NCBI RefSeq assembly: GCF_964204645.1
Contig: NC_134033.1
Coordinates: 13,704,155-13,768,154, forward strand
DNA from: Tubulanus polymorphus
Taxonomy: Eukaryota; Nemertea; Palaeonemertea; Tubulaniformes; Tubulanidae
DNA: 64,000 nucleotides
Reading direction: 5' to 3'
Positions 6,124 through 56,340 of this stretch are shown here, in pieces. Positions within the stretch are counted from its first letter, which is position 1. The number at the start of each line of letters is the position of its first letter. A program made the translations under genes and the position numbers. The notes below the pieces were generated by a model. It searched no databases. It saw only the letters and a list, made by a program, of their open reading frames with translations, and had not been told where the DNA came from.

Positions 6124-7371
6124 TTAGTCTGAGGCTGATGGCATTCCGTTTCCTTTGAAACTTGGCACATTGATTTCGTGTTGCTGCGGATCACCAATGC
6201 CAACCGATCGCAGTGACGTCATACTATTAGTACGGCTAATAGGCGGCGTCGCTGTACCACTAACGACTTCACGACGTCTAAGAACCGGTGTGAGCCTACC
6301 GGAATGAGTCTGTAAGGCTGACTGAGGTGAAAGAAATTGTTGACCATTAGTCTTATCAAATTTATTGATTTCGTCATCCGGGTCGTAACCGATATTTATA
6401 ACGGCCTTGACCTTCATCGACGTGTTGTTATCGTCGAATAGTTCGCTGTTTCTGGGCGACGAGCTCCGGGTCGAGTCGGTGTCGACATCAGACATCTGAA
6501 AATGACGGAGCGCGACGGTTGACACGGAACAGTCCGCATCCGTGGTCGTCACGCTTCCTCTTTCGACCGTGTAAAACTTCTCGCTGGCGTTCGCGTGAAT
6601 TTTCTTCATGCAAAGTAACGTCAAAGCGACGTGAATTGACGAGAACAGAAGGAATACCGGGCACAGAATCCCGATAATAGTCAACTGACGGGTCAACGTC
6701 GCGCGTAAGAGCGGGTCACAGGCGTTCTTGTAAATCACTTGTAATGGACTATTCGTATTTCGGGAAATCTGTTGACAAGTAGTCGATTTATTGGATATGA
6801 GAACTTCGGGAACTAGATCGGCCGCGCATTGACACGATTTCGGATAGATAACCGAATCTAAAGTCGACCAGTCGGTATGATCGAGTACTCCGCAGCAGTG
6901 TTCGTTAGTTTGAATCATGAGCAGACAGGGGGCGTTCGAGTCGATCGTTTCGTTCGATACGCCCATATCCAGCATTCGTCTCAGATTAGATTCCAAATTT
7001 CCCTCAACGTCCGTGACGTAATGACTCCACGTGAACGCCGTTGCTACTAGCAGCAGAACGCCGATGACCGCGCACACGGCCAGTAGCTTGAAGAGCAAAT
7101 TTACCAGATCGAACGTCTGACCTGACGTCACAAAACCCGTGAAACTGAACAGAATCATTATAACCGCCGCGGCGATTGTTACGTAAAGCTCGATTTTGAG
7201 ATGGCTGCCAATCAGGCAAGTGGGCAGCTGGGTCATCAGAAAGTTAATGGAGAATCCGAGTAGAATACAGCCTTGTATAAGAAGCAATATGAAGTATAAA
7301 ATGTAAACGACGTGGGCAGTTTTAGTGCGGTATATGAGCAAACCAAACCTAGTTGCAGCTTGACTTTTCAT
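6124..7371 (-). CDS. Tetraspanin family protein, single exon, long C-terminal tail
   Basis: 415 residues from one uninterrupted frame starting with ATG. Four membrane segments are visible at about 21-45, 60-84, 91-115 and 230-254. The large extracellular loop (116-228) carries the tetraspanin CCG signature at 159-161, plus C180, C182, C199 and C218 for loop disulfides, and N-glycosylation sequons (NET, NKS). Tetraspanins organise membrane microdomains with integrins and other partners. Two things are odd. The cytoplasmic tail is about 160 residues, far longer than the usual 5-30, and is rich in Ser, Thr and Asp. There is also no intron, whereas most tetraspanin genes are split, so a retrocopy or lineage-specific gene is possible. 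The subfamily is not recognised. Confidence 0.85.
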   Translation of the reverse strand: MKSQAATRFGLLIYRTKTAHVVYILYFILLLIQGCILLGFSINFLMTQLPTCLIGSHLKIELYVTIAAAVIMILFSFTGFVTSGQTFDLVNLLFKLLAVCAVIGVLLLVATAFTWSHYVTDVEGNLESNLRRMLDMGVSNETIDSNAPCLLMIQTNEHCCGVLDHTDWSTLDSVIYPKSCQCAADLVPEVLISNKSTTCQQISRNTNSPLQVIYKNACDPLLRATLTRQLTIIGILCPVFLLFSSIHVALTLLCMKKIHANASEKFYTVERGSVTTTDADCSVSTVALRHFQMSDVDTDSTRSSSPRNSELFDDNNTSMKVKAVINIGYDPDDEINKFDKTNGQQFLSPQSALQTHSGRLTPVLRRREVVSGTATPPISRTNSMTSLRSVGIGDPQQHEINVPSFKGNGMPSASD

Positions 7372-10300
7372 CTTTTTAAACGTAGTGCTCGCTCCCGACC
7401 GATTGGTTTATCCTACAACTTTTTCATAACTGAAATCAAGAAATAAATAAACTTGAGGAAAGAAACGAAATAACGAGTATTTTTTTACGCAATTCGCCTG
7501 TCTTATTCTTATGGATAAGACGCGTATTTTGCTTCACACCTAAAAAGATTGTCCCAGAGAGGTCTTGAACCGATATCGCATGAATAACGTGCAAAGGCCT
7601 AAAACTCTTTCCCTTTTGTATAGAAAACTGATCTGTCGAACTCTTGATGATTTGTTTCTTAATGTCCTTGTTATATATGAAAAGCTTCATGTTTACCTGA
7701 ATATCCGTCGATTGGAGAATCGCACGCGCTCAAATAACCATAATCTCCTGATTTATACGTATATGACTGACTGCCACACATTCCCGAAGTTTATTTATGT
7801 CAGTAGTATGAAATTGAAGTTTTCCACACGCTATGTAAGAAGAACGAACTCGATTAGCACCTGCTTTCAAATCAGCTCTCATTCAAAATAACGTACATTC
7901 ATGTATATGTATGTGATATATTTCTATTTTCGTGCTGAATAATAGATCTACTTGTTTTTTTTTGGTGACTATATGTTCCTATTACAATATTGCTGCAATT
8001 CTGTCGCGTTATCGCGGTTTTCAGTTCTACTGTTTAGAATTGTAAAGACCGGTATTTTTAATGGGAACAGTTAATATTGCGTTATTGAGTGCACAACCAG
8101 ACAATATCGCTTTGTTTCTGATCGTAGGAACGCCTACTCATTTTTTCATCGAGTTTTCACTCTCAACAGACCTGCGCGGTGGGGTGGGCAGAGCACAGTA
8201 CTACATCAAGATGTGGCGCTTAGATAAGACTTAGAATCGCTCCAAATAAAGCAATCTTTTCTTCACAAATTAATACTGGTCCCAATGCTAGGATTGAATT
8301 GATCGAATTGTCAAAGACCCAGTTGGCCAGCTGGGAGTGAATCAAATTCGATTCGTTTTTTGATTTCAGAATAACCACACTCAACCGTGTGGAGGATAGA
8401 TAATAAGATGAAACCTGCTATAGATGAAAAGTTTTGTTATCGAGGATTTATGCAATCAAAAATCAATTAAAAAGGCACGATCTTTCGAACTCACATTAAA
8501 CATCATCGTCAGGTGTCTTATTAATGAAGTCTTATGAATAAACTTCGATTTTGAAAAATTTCGAATCTGTATGTAGTGGGTTTAATGTTATCATCGTTTT
8601 TGAATGTTTAATGCTAGAATCTAAATCCGTACTCAGAAGCCGTTTAGTCGATTGCCATTTTTCACGAAGGAATTACGAATATCGAGAATTAATAGCTATG
8701 TTCAGAAGCTACGAAGTCAATGGTTATTTCACCCGAAGGAATTACCAATATCGAGAATCGTCTCATAAATTCTGTTTATTCTAGTGTTTCTATTTTTACG
8801 CCTCGGTTATTGTTATCATTATCCTTGTACTCGTTTTCAATGCATGTTTTTATATAGACCGGTTAATCGAATTTTACGGCTTTTCAATGAAGTTCGGTTC
8901 AACTCGATCAAAAGACAGTTTCGTGCTAGAAAATATGTATTGACAAAAGACTTAAATCGTAGTCGTGTTCTGTGCTGATGATTAAATGTCAAATAACATG
9001 TGTCAAAGTCCAAATACCAGGCTCGAATCCCCGATAATAATCATCTTTATTCTATTTATAATTTCTAAAGGTTTGCTTCTATATTTGCTTTGCAGCTATA
9101 TGTCTTGACAGAATTCTAACGGTCGTTCTCTTAGAGCCGACCTACCCCCGTGGAGGTTGCTGAACGTCTACATCAGAATATGGTAGAAATATCATACAAT
9201 AATTCACTTAAGTGCAAGTAAACAATAAAACTGTTAATCAACCTTGCATGGCCACTACGAGTTACTCTTAACGAGTTCCTTTTTTGGGAGCTCGAACGTC
9301 ACTTTTTGACTTCTCTGGGTCTCCTCTATTTTCATCATTACTCTATATTGTAAAAAAAAAAAATCACACGAAATCCTATCCACAATGAGAATAGGAGGAC
9401 GGCGAAAGAGGAGAGAAAGAAGAAGGAAGAACTTTCGAGAGAACGGTGTGGTGTATGGCACTGGTGTAGCTGACGGGGTTTCGCCGGGCGAATACTAATG
9501 AGATACTGTAAAATCAACTGTTTACTTATACTATTAGTCTGAACACGCCTGCCAGTAATGAAAATATATTTCACCATTTTTGACGCCGTAAAAACCGTTA
9601 AATGTTGTATCCGTTGAACCTTGTATTAAGCGGCGTTATTTAAGGGGTTCTGTATGTCGAGTCGAGGTGTACTACGTCATCAATATTGGCGTTTAAAATG
9701 ACGATTACGATTGTGAATTTTGGCGTTTATCTTGTAATCAAAGTACGGCATATTACTGTATTTTATTTTCGATAAATGTCAACGATTATTTTTAGACTGG
9801 TTGCCTGTCAATTCAATTCAATAATCGATATTCTAATCCAGGATAACTTTATTGATCTTAATTACATGATTCATGTTATATCATTTATAGTCGGCAATAT
9901 TAAGCGATATATGTGTTATATATCAAGGCATCAAAAAACTTTCAAGTTAGTTTTCTTGTTTATCATTGATTACGTGTCGCAAGCTTTATCACTTCGGCCG
10001 TTGTTGGGTATTTTCGCTAACGATGGGACTACCATAGTAGATCCAACGTAGTACATCCGTTTATCTATTAACCGCTTATCAATAAGAGCCACATTGACTT
10101 GAATATATATGTTTCACATTATCAATAATATGCACGGAAAGTGATTGTCCAAGAATGTCTAACGACGGAGATAAGATTTATTGCGCCTGGCGCCTCCTAT
10201 CGGTCAATCGGCTCGAGCTTTGAATATTCAAATCGCCGGATCGCGCATGCGCACGTTGCAAAAGCGAATGAGATCGTCTGACAGCGATGGGGAGCAGCGC

Positions 10301-16200: not shown

Positions 16201-19200
16201 GGATACAGCAGGTGAAAATTACCTCACAATATTCCACTGCTCATAAACTGATTAATGAAACGAGGGTTGGGGGATTATTGGCTCTGTTCTGGACGACGCG
16301 GTTGATGGAAGGAACGCATCTTAATACCGCGAAACAAATCACGTTTTGATGTAATAATGCCGATTATGACAATAATTCGTCTTTCTCCCGCCTTGCCACT
16401 GATTGAATCCACGCAGGAAAAATCTCCGTGTGCAAAAACTTACCGCGTTAGGAATTTATTTTCGCAGTATTCCAGCTCGATTCATTGATTTATTGTTTTA
16501 TTTCTAAATTCTTGATTGTCAACAGGTGGACTGACTGTCGCTGCGGCCTCTTTCACGTTGATGTGAGGGGATAGAGTTCACTGACGAACTTATGGTTCAA
16601 CTATAACAAAAGTCTTTATCGTTCTAATTTTTCGTATCATCGTGTTCGAATTAAACTGATTTTTCAATAGTAATTTGTACTTAATTTTGCCAGGAAATAA
16701 CATCATAGTTTTTACGTCATGTGATTATCAAACCTTTGACGCTTTGAAACTGGAACCGAAAGAAGGCAGACAGTCAAGGCATTAACCTATCTGAACCCGA
16801 TATGTTTGATGTTATTGATCCACACTCAACCAGTCAAACACCTCTATTAGCGCGCAGAAATTTCCCATACCGCGCGAGACTCATCGGTAATCAATACAGA
16901 TCTGCAAATTTTCTTACAAATCTTCTTCCCCGATCTCAACAACGGGTGCCGACCCTAGCAAACTGGTCACGTGATGATATCACACGGGTCACGTGACATA
17001 AGGAATGGTCGTAGGCCAATGGATACTGGTCACGTGGCACCGGTTGAATTTACTTGGCCACGTGACACCTACCGACAGACGTGCGAAGAGTTTTTAAAGG
17101 CGGTGTCAATTTTAACGACGTACGTTCGCTGAAAGAAGAGGTTCTTCTACCGTGCTATCTTCCCCTCTTGCTCCTGTGTGATGAATTTCAAACGCATTGC
17201 CGCGCGAATTGACTTGAAGCACTCGTTGAATGACTGGTGAGGAACTTTGATCAGTGGCGGGCTTTTAACGACTTCACAGCGACACACACAGACACAGAAC
17301 ACCTCTTTGTAACGCCGCCGGGGTTTCTTCCGTTCAATGTTCACCCCGTCAGTGATAAGTATGCAAATTAGCGGCTTAATGTAAGACGCAGCGTATTGTT
17401 TCATCTGTACGTATTGACTTATGCGCGCACGTCGTGCGATAGAGATCAGAATTTATGGCCCCATTTTGCATGAAGAAGAAGAAGAAAAAAGGTTGTTAAA
17501 GAGAAGATACACAATATCCTCGTAAGATGAATAATGAGAGAAATCCCACCATAATTTCAGCCAAAAATGAAAAGTTCTGAGGTAAAAATGATATGTATTT
17601 CGTGCAACGTTTCGGCTAAAAACTATTAGCAATCATCAGACGTGCTGAGTACACATTGATTTCGAATTGATGATTGAGCTCAATTTGTTTTAGTATTTCT
17701 TCTAAAGTGTTGAGCAACTTTATTTCTTTTTAAATATCAGGCCCTTTTCCAAAATGTCCGACTTCGTTCAGGAGTAACCGACAATCTCCGGATAACCAGA
17801 GTAGAACAGTGTGAATTTAGCAATAGTTGAATCAGAATCGTGCATTTTCGAAGTATACTCGATCGAAACACAGTTTTAGCTGGTGGCTCTGAAACGCCGA
17901 GTGGTTCCACATATATCTGTGCCGCGATTATAATGGATGTCGAAAGATTCGGAAGCCCACGGCGATAGAGCGCACGACGACATGTTGCCGTGTAGTAGCA
18001 GCAGATTGAGAGAGCGAGCGAGTGATCCGTTACGACACGCTGTAATATGAATAACCGCTTTGATTTCGGTTCGATGAATTTGATAATTCGATTTAACGAA
18101 AGACAAGTTCTAGCGTTGTGTGTGTGTGTGGTGTGTGGTGGCGTGTGTGGTGGTGTGTGTGGTGGTGTGTGTGTGGTGTGTGTGTGGTGGTGTGTGTGGA
18201 GGTGTGTGTGTGGTGTGTGTGATGTGGTGTGTGTGGTGTGTTTTATCCATACCTGAAAGGACAATAGAGCAGCAATCATCGAAGTTCAGGGGTGGATCCA
18301 GGATGAATTCAAAGTCTGGATGCCCTATTGGCCATTCCCCCGAAAATGCTGAAAGATGGGTCTCATTTTCACGCATTCTGAGCGCTTTTAGGCACTATTT
18401 ACTTGATCATCTGATATATATGTTTGAAATAAACAACATTTCTTTGAAATACAGCGATGCAAACAACTGAAAAAAAAATGATACGAAGGCAATTTCCAAA
18501 GGGGAGGGAGGCGTTCTCGAAGTTCCCCTCATCGGATGGACATACACGACGAACTTCCCTTACCAACGATGGCGGGAGAAAGCGAATAGAAAGTTACATT
18601 AACAATATCTCTTATGAAACATACAAATATAAGTAATAAGTTCAAGACGAATACAGTTAACACAGACATTTACACATAACATAACGTAACGTGTATTACA
18701 TAATACATAAACATTTAAGAAGAGTTGAGAAAGAGCCCAGGTTAATCTGACGCAGAATCAGTGAACGTGATGTAAACATATAGTAATCAGATTAGACAGA
18801 TTGATTAATGTAAGTGATTTGAAATATTTTTGCTAAATTCATACCGATGAGGAGGTTTCTCGTGCAGGCCTCGAATCGCTGAATTCTCCTGACAGCTTTG
18901 ATGGGTTAGGGTAACTCGAACATGGATTCTTTGTAATCCGTTCCACTTTCCTGGAGTCGAAATGCGGCATCGAAGTTTCGTCTGTGACTAGCGAAAAAGA
19001 GCTCAGTGCGTTTCTATAACTCCTAAAAACGAATTAGTTGAATTTACGCGCGGAAAATAAAATCTATTATTGAGGAGTAAAACTTTTCTTCAGGCGGCGT
19101 CGATTTGCGAAACCAATGATGATCGAATCGAATTAGCTGCCGATCACTCAGTTCTCTTTCGTAATAGAAAAACAGTTACGACCAGGTTCTTTTATTTCTT

Positions 19201-35300: not shown

Positions 35301-37497
35301 TTTACTGGGCCTTCTACTATCGGTGTCGGCCTCGGCCATTGTAAGTATTCTACATCAATTACATGCTTAGAAATTATATTGGCAACAATATGAATTCAAG
35401 AATAGCAGCTCGAATACAGCTCAAATATATCACAACTTAAAAAATGGTTCCTCCCACGGGTTGGGTATGTGACAGTTTGAATTTTTTGAAATGTGTTACT
35501 AATTATAAGTTCATTAATTCTAAAAATGTATCGCGTCGCTTGGTAAGATATATAATGTATTATTTGATATATAAGTTAGAAATAGTTGATCTTTAACCTT
35601 TTTCGAATTCATTTACATACATTAACACATTTAACAAAATGCAGTTGAATCCTTAAAAGCGCCAAAAAGCATTGCATTTTAGGAAAATTCGGTAAAGCAT
35701 ACTTTCTCTCATTTCAGGTTTATATGATTATAAGGGAGCCGTTGATTTTTCAAATAACGTTTGGTGTTCTGGCTATGTTGCTCATTGTTATGGGTCGAAT
35801 TCTTTTCAAGTAAGTATGCGAAAAATTTATGTCAGATTACAAGAGTAAGGTAAGTGTTGCTGAAAGGTTGTTGAATTTCAACCATGCTACAAGAGAGCTT
35901 TGATCATTCTTTAACCAGTTTAAAACGCTACTGTTTATATTTTACTTTGACAATATTCGCAAATTGCTAAAAGGCAGAAGAGACTCACGTACAGAATTCT
36001 TCATTCGTCAGTAATTTTTTCGTTTCTTATTTTATAGCCAAAAACATATGCAGAACATCGACAAAACCCTGTTTTACAAAGCTTTTATTTTGATGCTGGT
36101 CGCATTTTGTTTGTGGATTATAGACACTGCTGCTTGTAGTAAATTGAGGTAATTATACACACGCACCAAGATTATTTACCTTTCAAAAACTACAATCTCC
36201 GATCCACTTACGGCATCATATACGCATTTGATTTTGTAAGCGGCTGCCATCTGGCTGTACCCGCCATGGCTGGCGAACTTCGTAGAATCTTCCATTGTCA
36301 CAGTATCATTGTCGATTGTTGATTATATCCTTTTTTTTAATTCAGGACACTCCGTACTCACATATTCCCGGCGGTCAGACCGATCACTCAGCTCCACACG
36401 TGCTGGCACATTCTGAGCTCATACGCTGGATTTACGACAATAGCATTTTTGTAAGTTTTTACCGATTATTTACGTCGAATCAATGTTTGTAGTTCATTTG
36501 ATCGTTACAAAAAAGTGTCTCCAGTGACATCAGGTAAAGTGTGGAAGAATGTTGGAAGTATCCGTACCCCTAACAATGGGATGGGGGTCCATGCAGCTGG
36601 TTGATACCTGTATTCATTCTGAGTTATTTGCTGTATTGAGCTGAACTTAATACCGTTACCGAGGTATAAACCAAAACTACATCTCATTTCAGAGTATACG
36701 CTAGGGCTAGTCACCTTGGAAATAAACACCATATTTTAGTAAGTATAGTTATCTGCTTTCGCATATCAGTCTGGAAGGACTATAGTCATTATTGAGTTAA
36801 CACTAGAGTTAGGGTCTATGTAACTTACGAGGTCAGTTGCTGAATATTTGGTTAACTTTAACCAGTTGTGAGCTCAACGACTGAACATCCCTAACGAGTC
36901 GCTAAATTGTCTTGTTCAAACAAACGTTTAGAGAAACCGTTAGCTAACGACTCTTGCGCAACCAGCTCATCTTCGTATATTCTGACGATTTTAGATACAG
37001 CTGAGGAGAGAATATCACAATGATAATAAAAAGTCCGAAAATGAAACTTCGAGATAGTAGTTTATTCAACGTTCCGACTATATCCTAATAGTCATCTTCA
37101 GGAATAATGAGATACTACAGAAATTATGAGATATATATACAATCCAGGGACAAAGAGACTAATTCAAGTAATCAGAGATGATACAAACTAAAGGAAAATT
37201 AACGTAGAAACAGTTACACGCTAAAATAGATTAAAGGGAAGCAAACTAAGGGGTGATTATAAACAACAATAGTGAAGATGACTATTAGGATATAGTCGAA
37301 ACGTTGAATAAACTACTATCTCGAAGTTTCATTTTCGGACTTTTTATTATCATTGTGGGATTCTCTCCTCATCGCGTCAACACGGATATTGTGTTTTACC
37401 TATCGTGATTAGATACAGCTACTCTTCTTATTTTCAGTCAATAATGGGATTCCCATTTGTCAGATGCCAACAGAACAGTAACGTGCAGAATTACTGA
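32309..37497 (+). CDS. ACER3: Alkaline ceramidase, ACER3-like
   Basis: Membrane hydrolase that cleaves ceramide to sphingosine and fatty acid in ER/Golgi membranes. Ten exons, all in phase: 32309-32414, 33850-33960, 34281-34333, 34501-34553, 35259-35340, 35718-35809, 36038-36148, 36346-36450, 36693-36738 and 37438-37497; 272 residues (human ACER3 267). The start MADAKGNFPGFWGPTTSLVDWC matches the family N-terminus; YIAEFWNT supplies E34. GIGSWMFHMTL supplies S78 and H82, QLADEIPM supplies D93, and QLHTCWH supplies H220 and H224. These correspond to the Ca/Zn site and catalytic residues E33, S77, H81, D92, H217 and H221 of human ACER3. The seven-helix CREST fold is visible as hydrophobic stretches. 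Every catalytic residue is kept, so it should be active. A decayed partial copy lies at 42.19-43.02 kb. Confidence 0.95.
34018..34208. mobile_element. MITE-like element, GGATCC-end family
   Basis: It lies in intron 2 of the ceramidase gene. The left end CAGGGGCGGATCCAGGG pairs with the degenerate right end GGACCCGCGATCCGGCCCTG. No coding capacity. Confidence 0.5.
37003..37408. mobile_element. Foldback element with 12-bp target duplication in last ceramidase intron
   Basis: Two arms of about 98 bp (37003-37100 and 37272-37370) are inverted copies at roughly 95% identity by eye. The element is bracketed by TTAGATACAGCT at 36991-37002 and 37409-37420, a perfect 12-bp direct repeat that looks like a target-site duplication. 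Each arm carries TGAAGATGACTAT..ATAGTCG(G/A)AACG, the hairpin motif found in other repeats here. Inverted arms with variable-length target duplications recall non-autonomous Penelope-like elements. It sits about 18 bp upstream of the last ceramidase exon without destroying its acceptor. Confidence 0.7.
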
Positions 37498-41239: not shown

Positions 41240-41900
41240 TGGTGTTCCGATCGCGATATTTTTGCCAGATGTTTAACTTGTAATCGAATATCGGTTTCAA
41301 TTGCAAACAAACCAATTAAAACATCCTTAAAGTACGTACGAGTTACGTGTACGAAAAAAAGACATTTGAACTGTATCGAGAAGGTCGAATTGAATCAGCA
41401 TTTTCCCGGTCATATTCGTTCAAAAATACTTTCCAGGTCGCCAGTCCCGTTATTGAAACCTTCAGGAAAGCGTTGACTTTTCAGGTTTTTCAGGTTTTTC
41501 ATCGAGGAGGGACGATTTTGTTTTCGTTTGTTAACACAATAATAAAACCTTAAAAAGTAACCAATTAACGGATTTCGCGAGAACTTCCGTTGAAAGTATC
41601 GATAATAACGAGCACGCAGATGGATTTCATCGAATCGAGTGTTTTACACTTTAATGAGCGTATTCGCAATTGATATGAAACGTCGATCACCAAACCGAAC
41701 TAAGGAGGATGTGAGTTGTCAACACGCTCCTGGTAAAAATGCTTGTGGCCAAATCAACTAAATTCAAGAACCTTTTTAATGTATTTAAAATCCTTACGAC
41801 CGAGGCATACGGAGTATAAAAATAAAGTCTAATAGGTTAACAATGATGATAGACAAATCATGAAAATTTGAAAATGCACAATTCAGTTATCTTCAACATG
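41240..41900. repeat. Duplicated block, copy A
   Basis: A series of matches in the same order to copy B at about 43.00-43.68 kb: ATTTTTGCCAGA, TCGAATATCGGTTT, GCAAACAAACC, TACGAGTTACGTGTA, TTCAAAAATACTTTCC, GGATTTCRTCGAATCGA, CTCCTGGTAAAAATGCTTG and AAAATGCACAATT. Indels distinguish the two copies. Confidence 0.7.
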
Positions 41901-42188: not shown

Positions 42189-43020
42189 ATATGAGGGGCC
42201 GATGATTTTTCCAATAATGTTTGGTGTTCTGGCTGTGTTGCTGATTGTAATCAACAGGGGGAATGTTTTTAAGAAAGTACATGTATAACGAAAAATGTAT
42301 GTGTAAGTACAGGGGTAAGTGTTGCTGAAAGGTTGATAAATTTCAACCATATACTACAAGAGAGTTATGCAGAATCGCGTACTTTTGTTGGGTCAGCAAT
42401 TTTCCGTTTTCTATTTTGTAGCCAAAAACATAAGCAGAGCATCGACAAAAAGTGTTTTAAAGAGGTTCGCGGGCATTCACTCATACCAGAACTGAGAAAT
42501 CACTACATATGCATTACTGCTGAATGAAAACATTGTCAAAAATGTATTCTACAGTCTTTAACATGCCTTGAATATCTTGATGACACGAAGAACCAAGGCT
42601 GGCTGGTCCTGTGTCCATTTCTCACACAAAACCATATCCAATGTATTTTGTCAAACGAATTTACTCGTCACTGATTAAGACCTTGAGATAATATTTCAAA
42701 ATAATGACCAAATTCTTGACCCCCAGCACCGGTAAGTCCGAACCCCAATAAAATGAAAAAGAACGACAAGAAGACAAACCGACACCCGCCTGAACAGTTT
42801 TCATTTCATTTTCTATTGAGCAAGAACTAATTTTCAGCCTTAATTTCATTTTACCGGGTCTCTAAGCCTTAGATTTTTGCACCTAGTCGGATGTCGGTTT
42901 CAGATGCCATAGATGAGTACAACCTAATAACGCCAATGAATACCCGCCTTATTTTCAGTCAACAATGGGATTCCCATTCGTCAGATGCCAACAGAACAGT
43001 AACGTGCAGAAATAATACAT
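42189..43020 (+). pseudogene. Partial ceramidase (ACER3-like) pseudogene from a DNA-level duplication
   Basis: Three parts of the ceramidase gene recur here in order and orientation. 42189-42285 matches exon 6 (GTTTGGTGTTCTGGCT is shared). 42421-42470 matches the start of exon 7 with its acceptor (GCCAAAAACATA..CATCGACAAAA). 42954-43020 matches exon 10 (CAATGGGATTCCCATT, then CAGATGCCAACAGAACAGTA). Intron sequence between exons 6 and 7 is also shared (GTAAGTGTTGCTGAAAGGTTG), so this is a genomic duplication, not a processed copy. Exons 1-5, 8 and 9 are absent, the exon-7 copy runs off its frame, and the exon-10 copy ends in an early TAA. It cannot encode a ceramidase. Confidence 0.85.
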
Positions 43021-43680
43021 TTTTGCCAGATTTTTTACTTGTTCGAATTTTAGATGTATTCGAATATCGGTTTTATCCAATAACTACCACCAGTAAATGC
43101 AAACAAACCGATTATGATAACACGCTCAAAATACGTGCGAGTTACGTGTAACGATATAAAGACAATGAATCTTAGTGGTCGAGTTGTCATCGGCATCTTC
43201 CGAGTCGTATTCATTCAAAAATACTTTCCCGATCGTCAGTCCGTTTCTTTTCATTGATGAGGGATACTTTTCGTTTGTTTAAAGAATAACAAAAAATTAC
43301 AAACCAATTATCGATAAAAATGGTCTACGTAGACCTTGACCTCAAAAACGTACGCAGCTGGATTTCGTCGAATCGAATGTTTTACAAATGAGCGTTAAAT
43401 TCCACTCATGAATTTCCAACGAGACAAATCCCACCAATGAATTTAGCCAAAGATGAAAAGTTCTTGAATAGAAGTGTATATATGGATATACTTGGAGCAA
43501 CGTTTCGGCTAAAGACTAGTAGCCATGCTCCAAATATATTGTGTATGTATCATCTCGACTTATGTGTTGTCAACGTTCTCCTGGTAAAAATGCTTGCGGT
43601 CAAATCGTGCAAATTTGGTTATCTTAAAATGCACAATTGATAGTTTCCTTCAACTTACCAAAACATCAAGACGTTCCTCA
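43000..43680. repeat. Duplicated block, copy B
   Basis: Second copy of the block at 41.24-41.90 kb. It begins immediately after the exon-10-like piece of the ceramidase pseudogene. A hairpin repeat (43.41-43.54 kb) is inserted in this copy and absent from copy A, so the insertion came after the duplication. Confidence 0.7.
43414..43540 (-). repeat. Hairpin repeat with hammerhead-like core (copy 2)
   Basis: Relative of the 17.54-kb repeat. On the minus strand TTGGAGCA..TGCTCCAA forms an 8-bp outer stem around GGCTA..TAGCCGAAACG. The CTGATGA part has decayed here. Confidence 0.5.
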
Positions 43681-43696
43681 AGAGACGACTGTAGTG

Positions 43697-43920
43697 AACT
43701 TATATAAATCTCAGCATAATTGACGAATAAAAAACCCACAGTAGATTTGAAGAAACAGTTTATTTCCTAGCAGTTTCGAGGTTAAAAATAAACCTCATCT
43801 TCAGAGGAACAAAAAATACAATATAGTATTTTTTGGTCCTCTGAAGATGAGGTTTAGTTTAACCTCGAAACTATTAGGAAATAAACTGTTTCTACAAATA
43901 TACTGTGGGTTTTTATTCCC
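43697..43920. mobile_element. Foldback element with hammerhead-like hairpins
   Basis: Inverted arms of about 90 bp (about 43725-43818 and 43825-43918) around a tiny centre. Each arm holds CTGAAGATGAGGTTT..AACCTCGAAAC (left arm on the minus strand, right arm on the plus). Related sequence CAAGAGAC..TGTAG lies on both sides (43679-43696 and 43921-43935) and may be an imperfect target duplication. Confidence 0.65.
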
Positions 43921-43954
43921 CAAGAGACCTTGTAGCAAGTAATGTAAGATGGGA

Positions 43955-44240
43955 GTCAAAATAAACCCACTCAACTGTCAGGGATAAATTCACTCAACTG
44001 TGGAACTAGACCCAGAGTCTAATGAAACCCACAAGACTCAGGAACTGGATTCACGAGTCAAATTAAACCCACACAACGGTGGAACTAGACCCAGGGTCCA
44101 ATGAAACCCACAAAACTGTGGAACTGGATGCACAAGTCAAATTTAACCCACACAACGGTGGAACTGGATTCACGAGTCAAAATAAACCCTCTCAACTGTC
44201 AGGGACAAATCTAACACAAACCGCGGAAACTGGATCAAGA
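43955..44240. repeat. Minisatellite, 39-40 bp unit, five to seven copies
   Basis: Successive units read ACTGTGGAACTRGACCCAG, then a few bases, AATGAAACCCACA; or ACGGTGGAACTGGATTCACG, then AGTCAAATTTAACCCACAC. The two unit variants alternate, which suggests a dimeric higher-order period near 79 bp. Single related units occur near 2.69, 12.41 and 26.87 kb (CAGTTCCACAG..GAGTTAA). Confidence 0.85.
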
Positions 44241-44293
44241 GTCGTTTGGCCCGTCACCACCACGAGTTTCTCAAGTATATAGTCGAATAATAT

Positions 44294-44372
44294 TCTTATA
44301 TCAGCAACGAGTTTTGTATATCCGAGTATATATTATATACTCGGATATACAAAACTCGTTGCTGATATAAGA
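44294..44372. repeat. Perfect 79-bp palindrome
   Basis: A left arm at 44294-44332 and its exact reverse complement at 44334-44372 are separated by one base. The arm begins TCTTATATCAGCAACGAG and ends CCGAGTATATA. No mismatch was seen over 39 bp. Confidence 0.95.
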
Positions 44373-45946
44373 TAATATAAATCAATCGCTATATAAAAAA
44401 AGAAGTTGCAGTTCTTTCTGCGGTCAGCAATTCCTATGATTGACATCGCGTCGATAATTCGGTAACTAACAGACAAATTGACCGACTCGATTGAAATCGA
44501 TCGAATAAAGATTGATGCGTTATACACACGATTGAAGACGGGCAGTCTACAGTCTGTGATATAGCGGCACAAGGGATATGCCTACGTATACTAGTGCGTA
44601 TTCATCAATGCATTGCTAACATAGGGTAGAAAAATCGGTGCTCTTTATTAAGCCTGAATGAAAATGAAATCCATTGGAATAAATGCTTTCAATCTCAGTG
44701 TATGCTCTATGTCTGAAGAGGGGTAACGTTACTCCCGAAAACGTTTGCTACAATAAGTTTATTTTACTCTTTAAAAAATGATCTTTGTAATGTTTTTCTT
44801 ATTACGGAATTTCAACTATTTGAACTGTACCTGCAAGATTCAGAAAAAAAATCATTCAAATAGTCTCTACTCTTGGTAGTTTGGTTCGGCTGTGTCAAGA
44901 GAAAGACCAACAATGAAGGACCGTGGACAGAAATTCATGATTCTCATTTTTCACGAAAATACAGAATTAAAGCATAACGTTTGGTGCTCCCTTATCAACC
45001 TTTCGTTCTTATTTTCTGAGTATTTCGGCGACTTGCTCATAGTATATCCTGCCAGATATTCTCATTCAATGAACACATGCAGCGTGTTTATTTCCCGTCC
45101 ATAACTCAAATATTCATAAGAAAATATTTCCGAATGAAATCGGATTTGATTTTGTACCGTTGCGCCAATATTTTCGAGGGATGGAGAATCAATTTTTGTA
45201 ACGCCCTTGTTTTTAGTTACGAGCGCAAGTCTGCGATCTTTACACCGACTCACACTGAGCGTGGCGCGCGCGTGACGGGAGAAAGACGTTCGTTTCGCTA
45301 TCAGTGTACACCGCTGTTTCCACCCACTAATGAGTTACAGAGAATCTTGTGTTTCGCTCCAGTGGTTTCGGCTTCAAACTGCTCTGTGATAACTTGACAT
45401 TAATTAGGCGAAGGATCTATCTTAGTATATCCGCGCGCGACAAAAGAGGATATATAATACTTCGCTACTTCGATGGGGAAAAGAGTCACACATTTTACTA
45501 GTTTTGATAGTCGTAACGTAATTGATATTCTATCATTTAGAATCCCTCCAGAGCCGAACACCTGCGGAAGATGGGTTTTAAGTTAAGAAAAACGCGTATC
45601 GCGTGGAGCTTGTTATGGTATATGACATTTTGATGTTCGAGGAATCCGTTTATTAAGCCTACAGCTCACAAGTCGAATATAGAAAACTCGGGCCTTTGAT
45701 TTCGTGGTTTATAATTTATCAGATGAGATGGCGGTGCGAAGCTCGCGTGTGCTTCGCGTGCGTGGCGATCTTAAGAAATAGAATAATTGCTGATAATTAC
45801 AGCACAGGAACTTGAATTCAAATCCGTCTCTCTATGCTCATACATTTACGTATACGAAATGTTAAATGAGCGGCGGTAATCCTGAAAATATTCAACGCAT
45901 CTTTATCGCTGTTTAAAAGCGCTTCGTTTCAACTTCCATCCGAACT

Positions 45947-54900: not shown

Positions 54901-56204
54901 CGATTCAACTCCATCAAATCTCCACCAGTCAACTCGCTAAACCGTTTACTAATCACAGTTTACTTAACTTTAGCTGTTTACAGTAAAGTGCTTTGGTTAT
55001 AGTTTAAGCCTTGGAGTAATCAGAGTGATTACTCCACGTTTACATATATATGTTATACAGTAAAATGAATACTGGTAGTCTATTCCGACTGAATAATATT
55101 CCTTTTCTATCATAGTCTGTGGTTTTAAGGAAATTCGTTCGGGGAATATATCCATTTCCCAATTTTTAAAGCCGCTATCTGGTAACCAACTCGGTTATCA
55201 TGAATTCCTCTTTGTTAAGTTCTATCACGTTATTCAATATTAGAGGGGTTGAACAAAGGAACCTGTACGCGGGTACTTTTACTTGTAGCTATAAATCGCC
55301 TCGTTCTTTTCCATTAAATACATGTTCGCTATAAATCACTAACAACGTCTTCAACGTATTTTACAGATATTCTGGTGGCTGTATTCGCGTTACCGATGGA
55401 AATCATGGCTCACTACGACGAACGTTTCATGACGTCACATCTGTGCAAGACGCTCCAGTTTTTCGTGCACGTGTCTCTAACTGCGAATATATACGGCGTC
55501 GTGGTGATCGCTGTCGATCGCTACCGCAGCATTTTACATCCATTTTCGACCTTCCAGTCGACGAAATACTGTCTGATTTGTATATCTTTCGTTTGGACTC
55601 TGTCTTCGGTGAGCGCGTGGCGAGGCGCTGCTATATACGACGTTAAGGTACACTTGTATAGGGATCGCAAAGGTGGCTGGACGGTCGTTCACGCATGCGG
55701 AATACCCAAATATTTCAACGCCTGGAATCGCGGACTGATAATCTACGATTTCCTGTCGACCTATGTCGTTCCGTTGTTCGTTTTGTTGGCGCTGTACGCG
55801 CGAATATTTCGACGAATTTACGACAAAAACGTGAATTTTCTTACCGAACAAAAACGCGTCCGAAACGCGCGCGTTGTTCGAATGTTGGTCGCCATTGTCG
55901 TTCTATTCGCCTGTTGTCAACTTCCGTTACACGTATGGAAGTTATACGTGCACCTTGGACCGGGTCCGTTCCTCGACTATCTGATCTGGTATGACGTGTT
56001 TGACGTCATTTCCTTTACGAACAGCTGGCTGAACGTGGCCGCTTACGTCGGTTTTAATGACAATTTCAAACGCGAATTCAGGGCGAGACTACCGTGCTCA
56101 AGGTCACCGCGCTCGCACATGTCGACGGTTTCGACTGTGAAGGCGAATGCGATCGTTCCAACTTCAGCTGCACTGCAGTCTCGTATAGAGGATCGCAGTA
56201 TCCA

Positions 56205-56236
<32 letters not shown>

Positions 56237-56340
56237 TGCCCCCGAGGTCACCTTCTAATAGAGCCCCGGAATCGTCAGATATACGTGTAGTTGGCAATGG
56301 ATGTGTTTTGGATGATAGTCGACCGGGGACTGACCTATAA
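45947..56340 (+). CDS. Class A (rhodopsin-family) G protein-coupled receptor, peptide-type
   Basis: Seven-helix plasma-membrane receptor, 411 residues from two exons, 45947-46208 and 55367-56340. The 9.2-kb intron splits the codon of the conserved TM2 aspartate (SLCVS-D-ILVAV, residue 88). Other marks: N-terminal sequon NWTF; TM1 GN at 59-60; C114 and C198 for the extracellular disulfide; DRY at 138-140; W164 in TM4; P223 in TM5. Two motifs are unusual: TM6 CQLP (271-274) instead of CWxP, and TM7 NVAAY (310-314) in place of NPxxY. The intracellular tail carries an 11-Gln CAG tract (56203-56235) and Ser/Pro-rich sequence. AATAAA at 56745-56750 is a plausible polyadenylation signal. The ligand is not recognisable; helix sequences look neuropeptide-receptor-like. 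Confidence 0.92.
46209..55366. other. Large GPCR intron
   Basis: 9.2 kb with a GTAAGT donor and a TTTTACAG acceptor. It contains a retroelement-like 3' tail ending in (ATTC)n near 49.7-49.93 kb. Two minus-strand frames (53344-53595, with one hydrophobic helix, and 53934-54240) lack ATG starts in the right place or family features. I found no gene that can be defended inside it. Confidence 0.5.
49700..49928 (+). mobile_element. 3' tail of a truncated non-LTR retroelement ending in (ATTC)n
   Basis: A T-rich stretch leads to TTGAAAAATAAAGTGTTC and then (ATTC)n at 49887-49928. A 3' UTR-like A/T-rich end with AATAAA and a terminal tetranucleotide repeat is typical of truncated LINE/SINE tails. 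A similar (ATTC)n tail follows GCAAAATAAAAA at 62.49 kb. Confidence 0.45.

Follow-up and report, generated by a model that had tools for sequence, protein, structure and literature searches.

The CTGANGA-hairpin-GAAA motif that recurs in the window (the whole stretch of 64,000 nucleotides analysed here) is very probably the minimal type I hammerhead ribozyme of Penelope-like retrotransposons (PLEs), predicted to cleave as a dimer. We base this on its sequence, its location, its compensatory stems and its self-complementarity, whereas dimer formation and cleavage would be expected from published work on relatives. The element kind itself is already known, minimal PLE hammerheads having been known since 2014. 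To judge from their sequences, the copies in the window are relics, 5'-truncated ends of dead insertions that often lie head to head with their tails outward and from which cleavage would not be expected; the genome, in turn, holds thousands of better copies, some of them within complete elements. The initial annotation had raised the possibility of a hammerhead family like those of PLEs and retrozymes. The PLE part is borne out by a pseudo-LTR location, an invariant core, compensatory changes in stems I and II and a UH dinucleotide beside stem I; for retrozymes, no support was found.

Families of the motif and their abundance

The layout is present at 43.8 kb (both strands), 44.71 kb (plus), 17.6 kb (minus) and 37.1/37.3 kb of the window. 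A strict pattern, requiring the core C, another C behind GAAA(A) and a stem of 4 bp or more, occurs three times in the window; 100 dinucleotide shuffles gave a mean of 0.0. In the 268-Mb animal genome, of which the window spans G000:C9:13704155-13768154, the exact pattern CTGANGATG-N{8,30}-CGAAACGTTG yields 1178 forward and 1165 reverse matches, 2,343 in all, and the reversed-pattern control yields none on either strand.

We distinguish eight families, which differ in their stems. The exact pattern covers F1 (GACTA..TAGTC), F2 (GGCTA..TAGCC), F3 (GGCTG..CAGCC) and F4 (GATCT..AGATC). DNA similarity combined with patterns traced F5 (GAGGT..ACCTC, the 43.8-kb element) and F6 (GGGG..TCCC, the 44.7-kb site), the latter with 45 DNA matches genome-wide, nine exact pattern matches and a comparison of the flanks of its relatives. 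Finally, F7 (GGGTG..CACCC) and F8 (GAT..ATC) were recovered from Penelope-like loci with a covariance model. The repeats carrying the motif, initially described as unrelated, are instead related families of one kind of element.

Rfam gives no trace of any of this. Its hammerhead models are made for molecules that possess a real helix III; they match neither the whole window nor an intact copy, even at an E-value of 10, and they match nothing in the genome either, in a search that ran without a positive control and scored few candidates. The covariance-model check proposed in the initial annotation therefore has a divided outcome, as our own model R1, built from nine genomic copies that all lie outside the window, matches seven places within it. 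Annotations relying on Rfam would miss these ribozymes; comparative evidence succeeds where Rfam gives nothing.

Core, stems and helix III

The aligned F1–F4 copies conserve CUGA-N-GA, GAAAC, GUU and little more, and the stems vary on both sides. The invariant columns are those of the hammerhead core and its flanks, namely C3 U4 G5 A6 N7 G8 A9, G12 A13 A14 and the pair A15.1-U16.1. With the structure specified beforehand and a plain MAFFT alignment, eight stem pairs changed on both sides, giving a covariation of 0.596 against 0.226 in shuffled data (0 of 500 shuffles) and of less than 0.2 for every slid control. Across one representative of each of the eight families, 29 of 32 pairs hold in stem I and all 37 in stem II, and only two (stem I) and one (stem II) of the 40,320 permutations of the 3' strands match this pairing, identity included; these permutation figures serve as a guide only, because the representatives were picked and aligned by hand. 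Compensatory changes across copies, which had been named beforehand as a test, are hence found in both stems. Stem II is a hairpin of 3–7 bp, and the fold of an F1 monomer yields stems I and II as drawn.

A helix III hairpin is absent. GAA is followed by a short self-complementary stretch, then by the base before the cut and then by the 3' strand of stem I. The stretch reads ACGU in most families, AUAU in F7, AACGUU in F6 and ACYGU in F5 (with a central Y-Y mismatch). In intact copies the UH cleavage site, which had been looked for between stems III and I, is GUU or GUA (AUU in F7) and directly precedes the 3' strand of stem I. Since there is no loop (or a single base in F5), A15.1-U16.1 and the next pair would form poorly within one molecule, and the C-G to U-A change in the F7 palindrome fits pairing between two molecules. 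Such a palindromic helix III, changing compensatorily across families, lends sequence support to dimer formation. In ViennaRNA dimer folding the hammerhead dimer is not the minimum-energy form, a result that is uninformative because non-canonical core pairs go unscored.

The textbook core, with no nucleotide between A9 and stem II, is seen in one family only. An extra base stands at that position in the seven others, U in F1–F5 and A in F7–F8, and it is lacking in F6. Among exact F1–F4-type cores, 2343 carry a T with G next to it; 43 have a different base, and several of these are clearly decayed. The extra base noticed in some copies of the window is, accordingly, a property of most families. 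A natural hammerhead with an extra core nucleotide is known from a viroid, Chrysanthemum chlorotic mottle viroid, in its (+) strand, as reportedly described by De la Pena and Flores (2001; cited in PMC6155905). In view of this precedent we do not take the extra base as disqualifying hammerhead membership. The likeness lies in the single extra nucleotide of the consensus core, which in the viroid, too, stands after A9; the viroid hammerhead differs in having a full helix III. The extra U or A after A9 is possibly a minor novelty, though earlier papers may already describe both this base and the palindrome with its covariation.

Copies in the window

The best match to R1 in the window is an F1 hammerhead of full layout at 37060..37109 on the minus strand (65.8 bits, E 5e-19), also evident from the sequence itself. 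Its layout is as initially annotated, but its GAAA is not intact, since the sequence reads GTCGGAACG instead of GTCGAAACG; GAAA has become GGAA (A13 to G). The neighboring F1 copy at 37267..37313 on the plus strand (45.0 bits, E 4e-12) is 5'-truncated and lacks both C3 and the 5' strand of stem I, inverted repeat I1 beginning at 37273. Here, too, the annotated layout stands without its core C (the sequence reads AGTGAAGA), because the truncation falls exactly there.

Two relics belong to F2. The one at 17598..17647 (minus; 51.6 bits, E 3e-14, and by sequence) has an intact CUGAUGA..GAAAC-GUU core; the basal pair of its stem II is a U-C mismatch owing to a G10.1 to U change, and its stem I is broken. 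The other, at 43499..43526 (minus; 29.7 bits, E 4e-7), lies in repeat D5 and had been overlooked initially. It consists of the 3' half only, retaining stem II, GAAAC and GUU and having lost the 5' part including CUGANG.

At 43.8 kb, two F5 relics face each other. The left arm (43761..43812, minus; 18.1 bits, E 0.0029) keeps the core CUGAAGA-U-GAGG..CCUC-GAAAC and stem I UCCU/AGGA, but it reads GAAAC-UGCU in place of the intact F5 sequence GAAAC-YGUU-AGGA, so that U16.1 is a C and the cleavage site is broken. The right arm (43834..43882, plus; 29.0 bits, E 7e-7) has the same core and reads GAAAC-UAUU, i.e., G16.2 is an A. The F6 hammerhead-like motif at 44713..44748 on the plus strand (CUGAAGA-GGGG..UCCC-GAA-AACGUU-U) was unmatched by R1 in the window search. 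It has no extra base after A9 and a stem I of only about 2 bp, with the formal core and the palindrome present, and it represents a more divergent family.

The layouts annotated at 43.8 kb (both strands), 44.71 kb and 17.6 kb are thus all found in the sequence; the two looser relatives fare less well. The one near 8.5 kb (CCTGACGATGATG..TTCGAAAG; 8471..8520, minus) gives only a weak R1 match (17.9 bits, E 0.0034) and is at best a possible decayed relative, of doubtful membership and too far decayed for its lesions to be scored. The lookalike at 24.04 kb has neither a pairing stem II with GAAA nor a covariance-model match, and we reject it as a member of the family. Taken together, the 17.6-kb copy and, formally, the 44.7-kb site are the only ones in the window with a complete core, which is damaged at 37.1, 37.3 and 43.8 kb. 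Each of the six clear R1-matched copies bears a visible lesion in the core, in helix III, in a core-adjacent stem or at the cleavage site, or has lost its 5' half.

Penelope-like elements as carriers

In two complete elements, L061 (F2) and L062 (F1), the motif immediately precedes an ORF (817 and 841 aa, respectively) with reverse transcriptase (RVT_1) and endonuclease (GIY-YIG) domain matches. A second motif lies about 320 bp downstream of the ORF, and the period is about 2857 bp. This order of motif, ORF and motif equals the pLTR-ORF-pLTR layout of PLEs (PMC11167929, PMC3846280). Genome-wide there are at least 150 GIY-YIG places, many of them in open frames of 817–841 aa.

Linkage to PLEs is likewise seen for F3 (in the PLE-linked locus L023), for F7 (alongside PLE coding sequence in loci L042 and L049) and for F8, which stands on the 5' side of an element (L063) that has two ORFs and both RVT_1 and GIY-YIG. 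It is weak for F6, and for F4 and F5 none is established. A 3563-bp unit with F6 at either end contains a degenerate PLE-like stretch (25% identity, E 1e-6), and this one degenerate coding match between two tandem copies suggests a PLE link more weakly than in the other linked families.

The window itself retains traces of the coding region. Directly after the 37.3-kb hammerhead, a Penelope ORF-start frame at 37327..37410 (plus; tblastn) is identical in 28 of 28 residues to residues 14–41 of the L062 ORF. Sequence from the start of the L062-family ORF thus follows this hammerhead, which makes the copy the 3' tail of an insertion, in keeping with PLE tails that reach into the ORF (PMC3846280, PMC11167929). 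The tail of the opposite F1 copy, at 36999..37084 (minus; tblastn), consists of ORF-start fragments (residues 1–29, in two frames).

Some further features of these elements may be recorded. L063 (G000:C4:49000-58500) is a tandem PLE with a period of 5513 bp, near the start of contig C4. Upstream it has an additional ORF of 656 aa, whose GDSL/SGNH hydrolase match stays below threshold (E 1.8e-6; 29 bits, cut-off 32.9), and the predicted F8 cut site lies nine bases before the first ATG of this ORF. In addition, a short TTGTGGGATT-like stretch recurs some tens of bases past the hammerhead in F1, F2, F5 and F7 tails (for example, at window positions 37340-37370 and 17530-17560) and may mark the start of reverse transcription.

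Head-to-head pairs

The two F5 arms form an inverted-repeat element of about 190 bp (43725..43919; inverted repeats I2/I5), made of two hammerhead-plus-tail units that lie head to head with their tails outward. It has tens of genomic copies, matching on both strands, and the junction of the arms varies among them, so the pairs seem to arise anew at insertion. The same orientation prevails more widely: neighboring motifs at most 4 kb apart on contig C1 are tail-out in 17 cases and tail-in in two, and GIY-YIG pairs are tail-out in 21 cases against one. PLE copies in head-to-head arrangement have been reported before (PMC3846280). They would be explained by the in vitro activity of a PLE protein, which cuts both target strands and extends them (PMC11167929).

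Proposed mechanism and known relatives

In the mechanism that we propose, each element would bear a hammerhead shortly before the RT/GIY-YIG ORF, within the pseudo-LTR, so that tandem copies would flank the ORF with one hammerhead on each side. Stem I would close the core, stem II would be the hairpin, and the self-complementary stretch (usually ACGU) would replace the helix III hairpin. Two copies, on one tandem transcript or on two RNAs, would pair via this palindrome to build helix III, and the resulting dimer would cut after GUU, leaving RNAs with 5'-OH ends on the ORF side.

PLEs carry minimal type I hammerheads without helix III (PMC6155905, PMC7761336, PMC7229834), and these are reported to act as dimers (PMC6155905, PMC7761336 and the literature that they cite). 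The minimal PLE hammerheads of Cervera and de la Pena (2014) and of Lunse, Weinberg and Breaker (2017), in the form in which citing papers describe them, share with ours the CUGANGA..GAAA core, stems I and II, the missing helix III hairpin, the pseudo-LTR location, tandem copies, thousands of copies per genome and the proposed dimers; what sets ours apart from those descriptions is the additional U or A that follows A9 in all families but F6. The hammerhead of Poseidon PAc from Anolis carolinensis sits at the same pseudo-LTR/ORF junction, has a tail into the ORF and cleaves in vitro, its activity being abolished by C3G or G8C (PMC11167929). Its start codon comes after C3 and G8, where stem II begins, which fits CUGANG-AUG and suggests, by analogy, the same AUG as in our motif. 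In PAc this AUG starts the ORF, whereas in F1 and F2 it soon meets a stop and the long frame opens downstream. Newt satellite and amphibian retrozyme hammerheads (PMC6155905, PMC7229834) likewise have a weak palindromic helix III and are active as dimers; unlike ours, they lie in short direct tandem repeats outside coding PLEs and have loop-loop contacts.

A more specific proposal is that these hammerheads make up a subclass active only as dimers: an extra U or A would be fixed at position 9.1, helix III would be self-complementary and covary palindromically, and cleavage would need two copies. We put this forward tentatively and consider it rather doubtful. If true, self-cleavage would be a sensor of tandem or abundant Penelope RNA; the role of PLE hammerheads in Penelope transposition is described as unknown (PMC7761336). 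Apart from the Rfam gap and the support from the palindrome, the finding is ordinary transposon anatomy.

Alternative explanations

The hairpin could instead be a protein- or RT-binding element of Penelope RNA, serving the start of reverse transcription or packaging, that merely resembles a hammerhead. Its position near the reverse-transcription start of a relative, where about 172 first nucleotides of the ORF region are needed, would suit such a role, as would the fact that hammerhead mutants of that element still insert in vitro (PMC11167929) and the extra core base that all families except F6 have. An invariant CUGANGA/GAAA, a covarying stem I, a self-complementary stretch and a UH beside stem I are, however, more than a hairpin for binding would require all together, and the Anolis relative does cleave (PMC11167929). 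We thus consider this reading unlikely, although binding and ribozyme roles may hold together. Still less probable is membership in the retrozymes, i.e., non-autonomous tandem repeats of 150–450 bp that carry canonical type I hammerheads and spread in the form of circular RNA. Animal retrozymes do have type I hammerheads and co-occur with PLEs (PMC7229834), but no Rfam type I model matches the window or the genome (the genome search lacking a positive control and scoring few candidates), and our copies are solo, head-to-head units or coding tandems of about 2.86 kb rather than short direct arrays, none of which was seen with the motif among the listed exact-pattern places.

That the 43.8-kb hairpin is a microRNA precursor seems highly improbable. 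The Rfam models MIR6140 (75 bits) and MIR2863 (61 bits) do match it, both below threshold and far under their gathering scores of 140 and 94; several unrelated plant and animal miRNA models match together, as they would for any long hairpin, and what is repeated here is a PLE end in head-to-head arrangement. The 24.04-kb site, and perhaps the 8.5-kb site, may be a short motif matched by chance in AT-rich repeats. For the main sites, a chance origin is refuted by the shuffles and the genome-wide counts (three found against 0.0 expected in the window, 2,343 against 0 in the genome), and as an account of the motif as a whole it has next to no probability.

Other features of the window

Between the F5 and F6 relics, positions 44294-44372 form a perfect 39-bp inverted repeat with one base between its arms. 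Several miRNA models match this hairpin below threshold; we rejected these matches, like those at 43.8 kb, as generic hairpin matches. A minisatellite with a unit of about 40 bp (AACTGTGGAACTGGATTCACGAGTCAAA..) occupies 43953-44210, and related pieces occur near 2.7 and 12.4 kb. Two pairs of dispersed repeats, about 80–90% alike (41315-41764 and 43114-43615; 35735-36066 and 42195-42450), lie outside the hammerhead elements. Finally, an open frame at 55318-56340 (plus) encodes a rhodopsin-type GPCR (7tm_1, E 4e-30), and one at 6124-7407 (minus) encodes a tetraspanin (E 2e-14).
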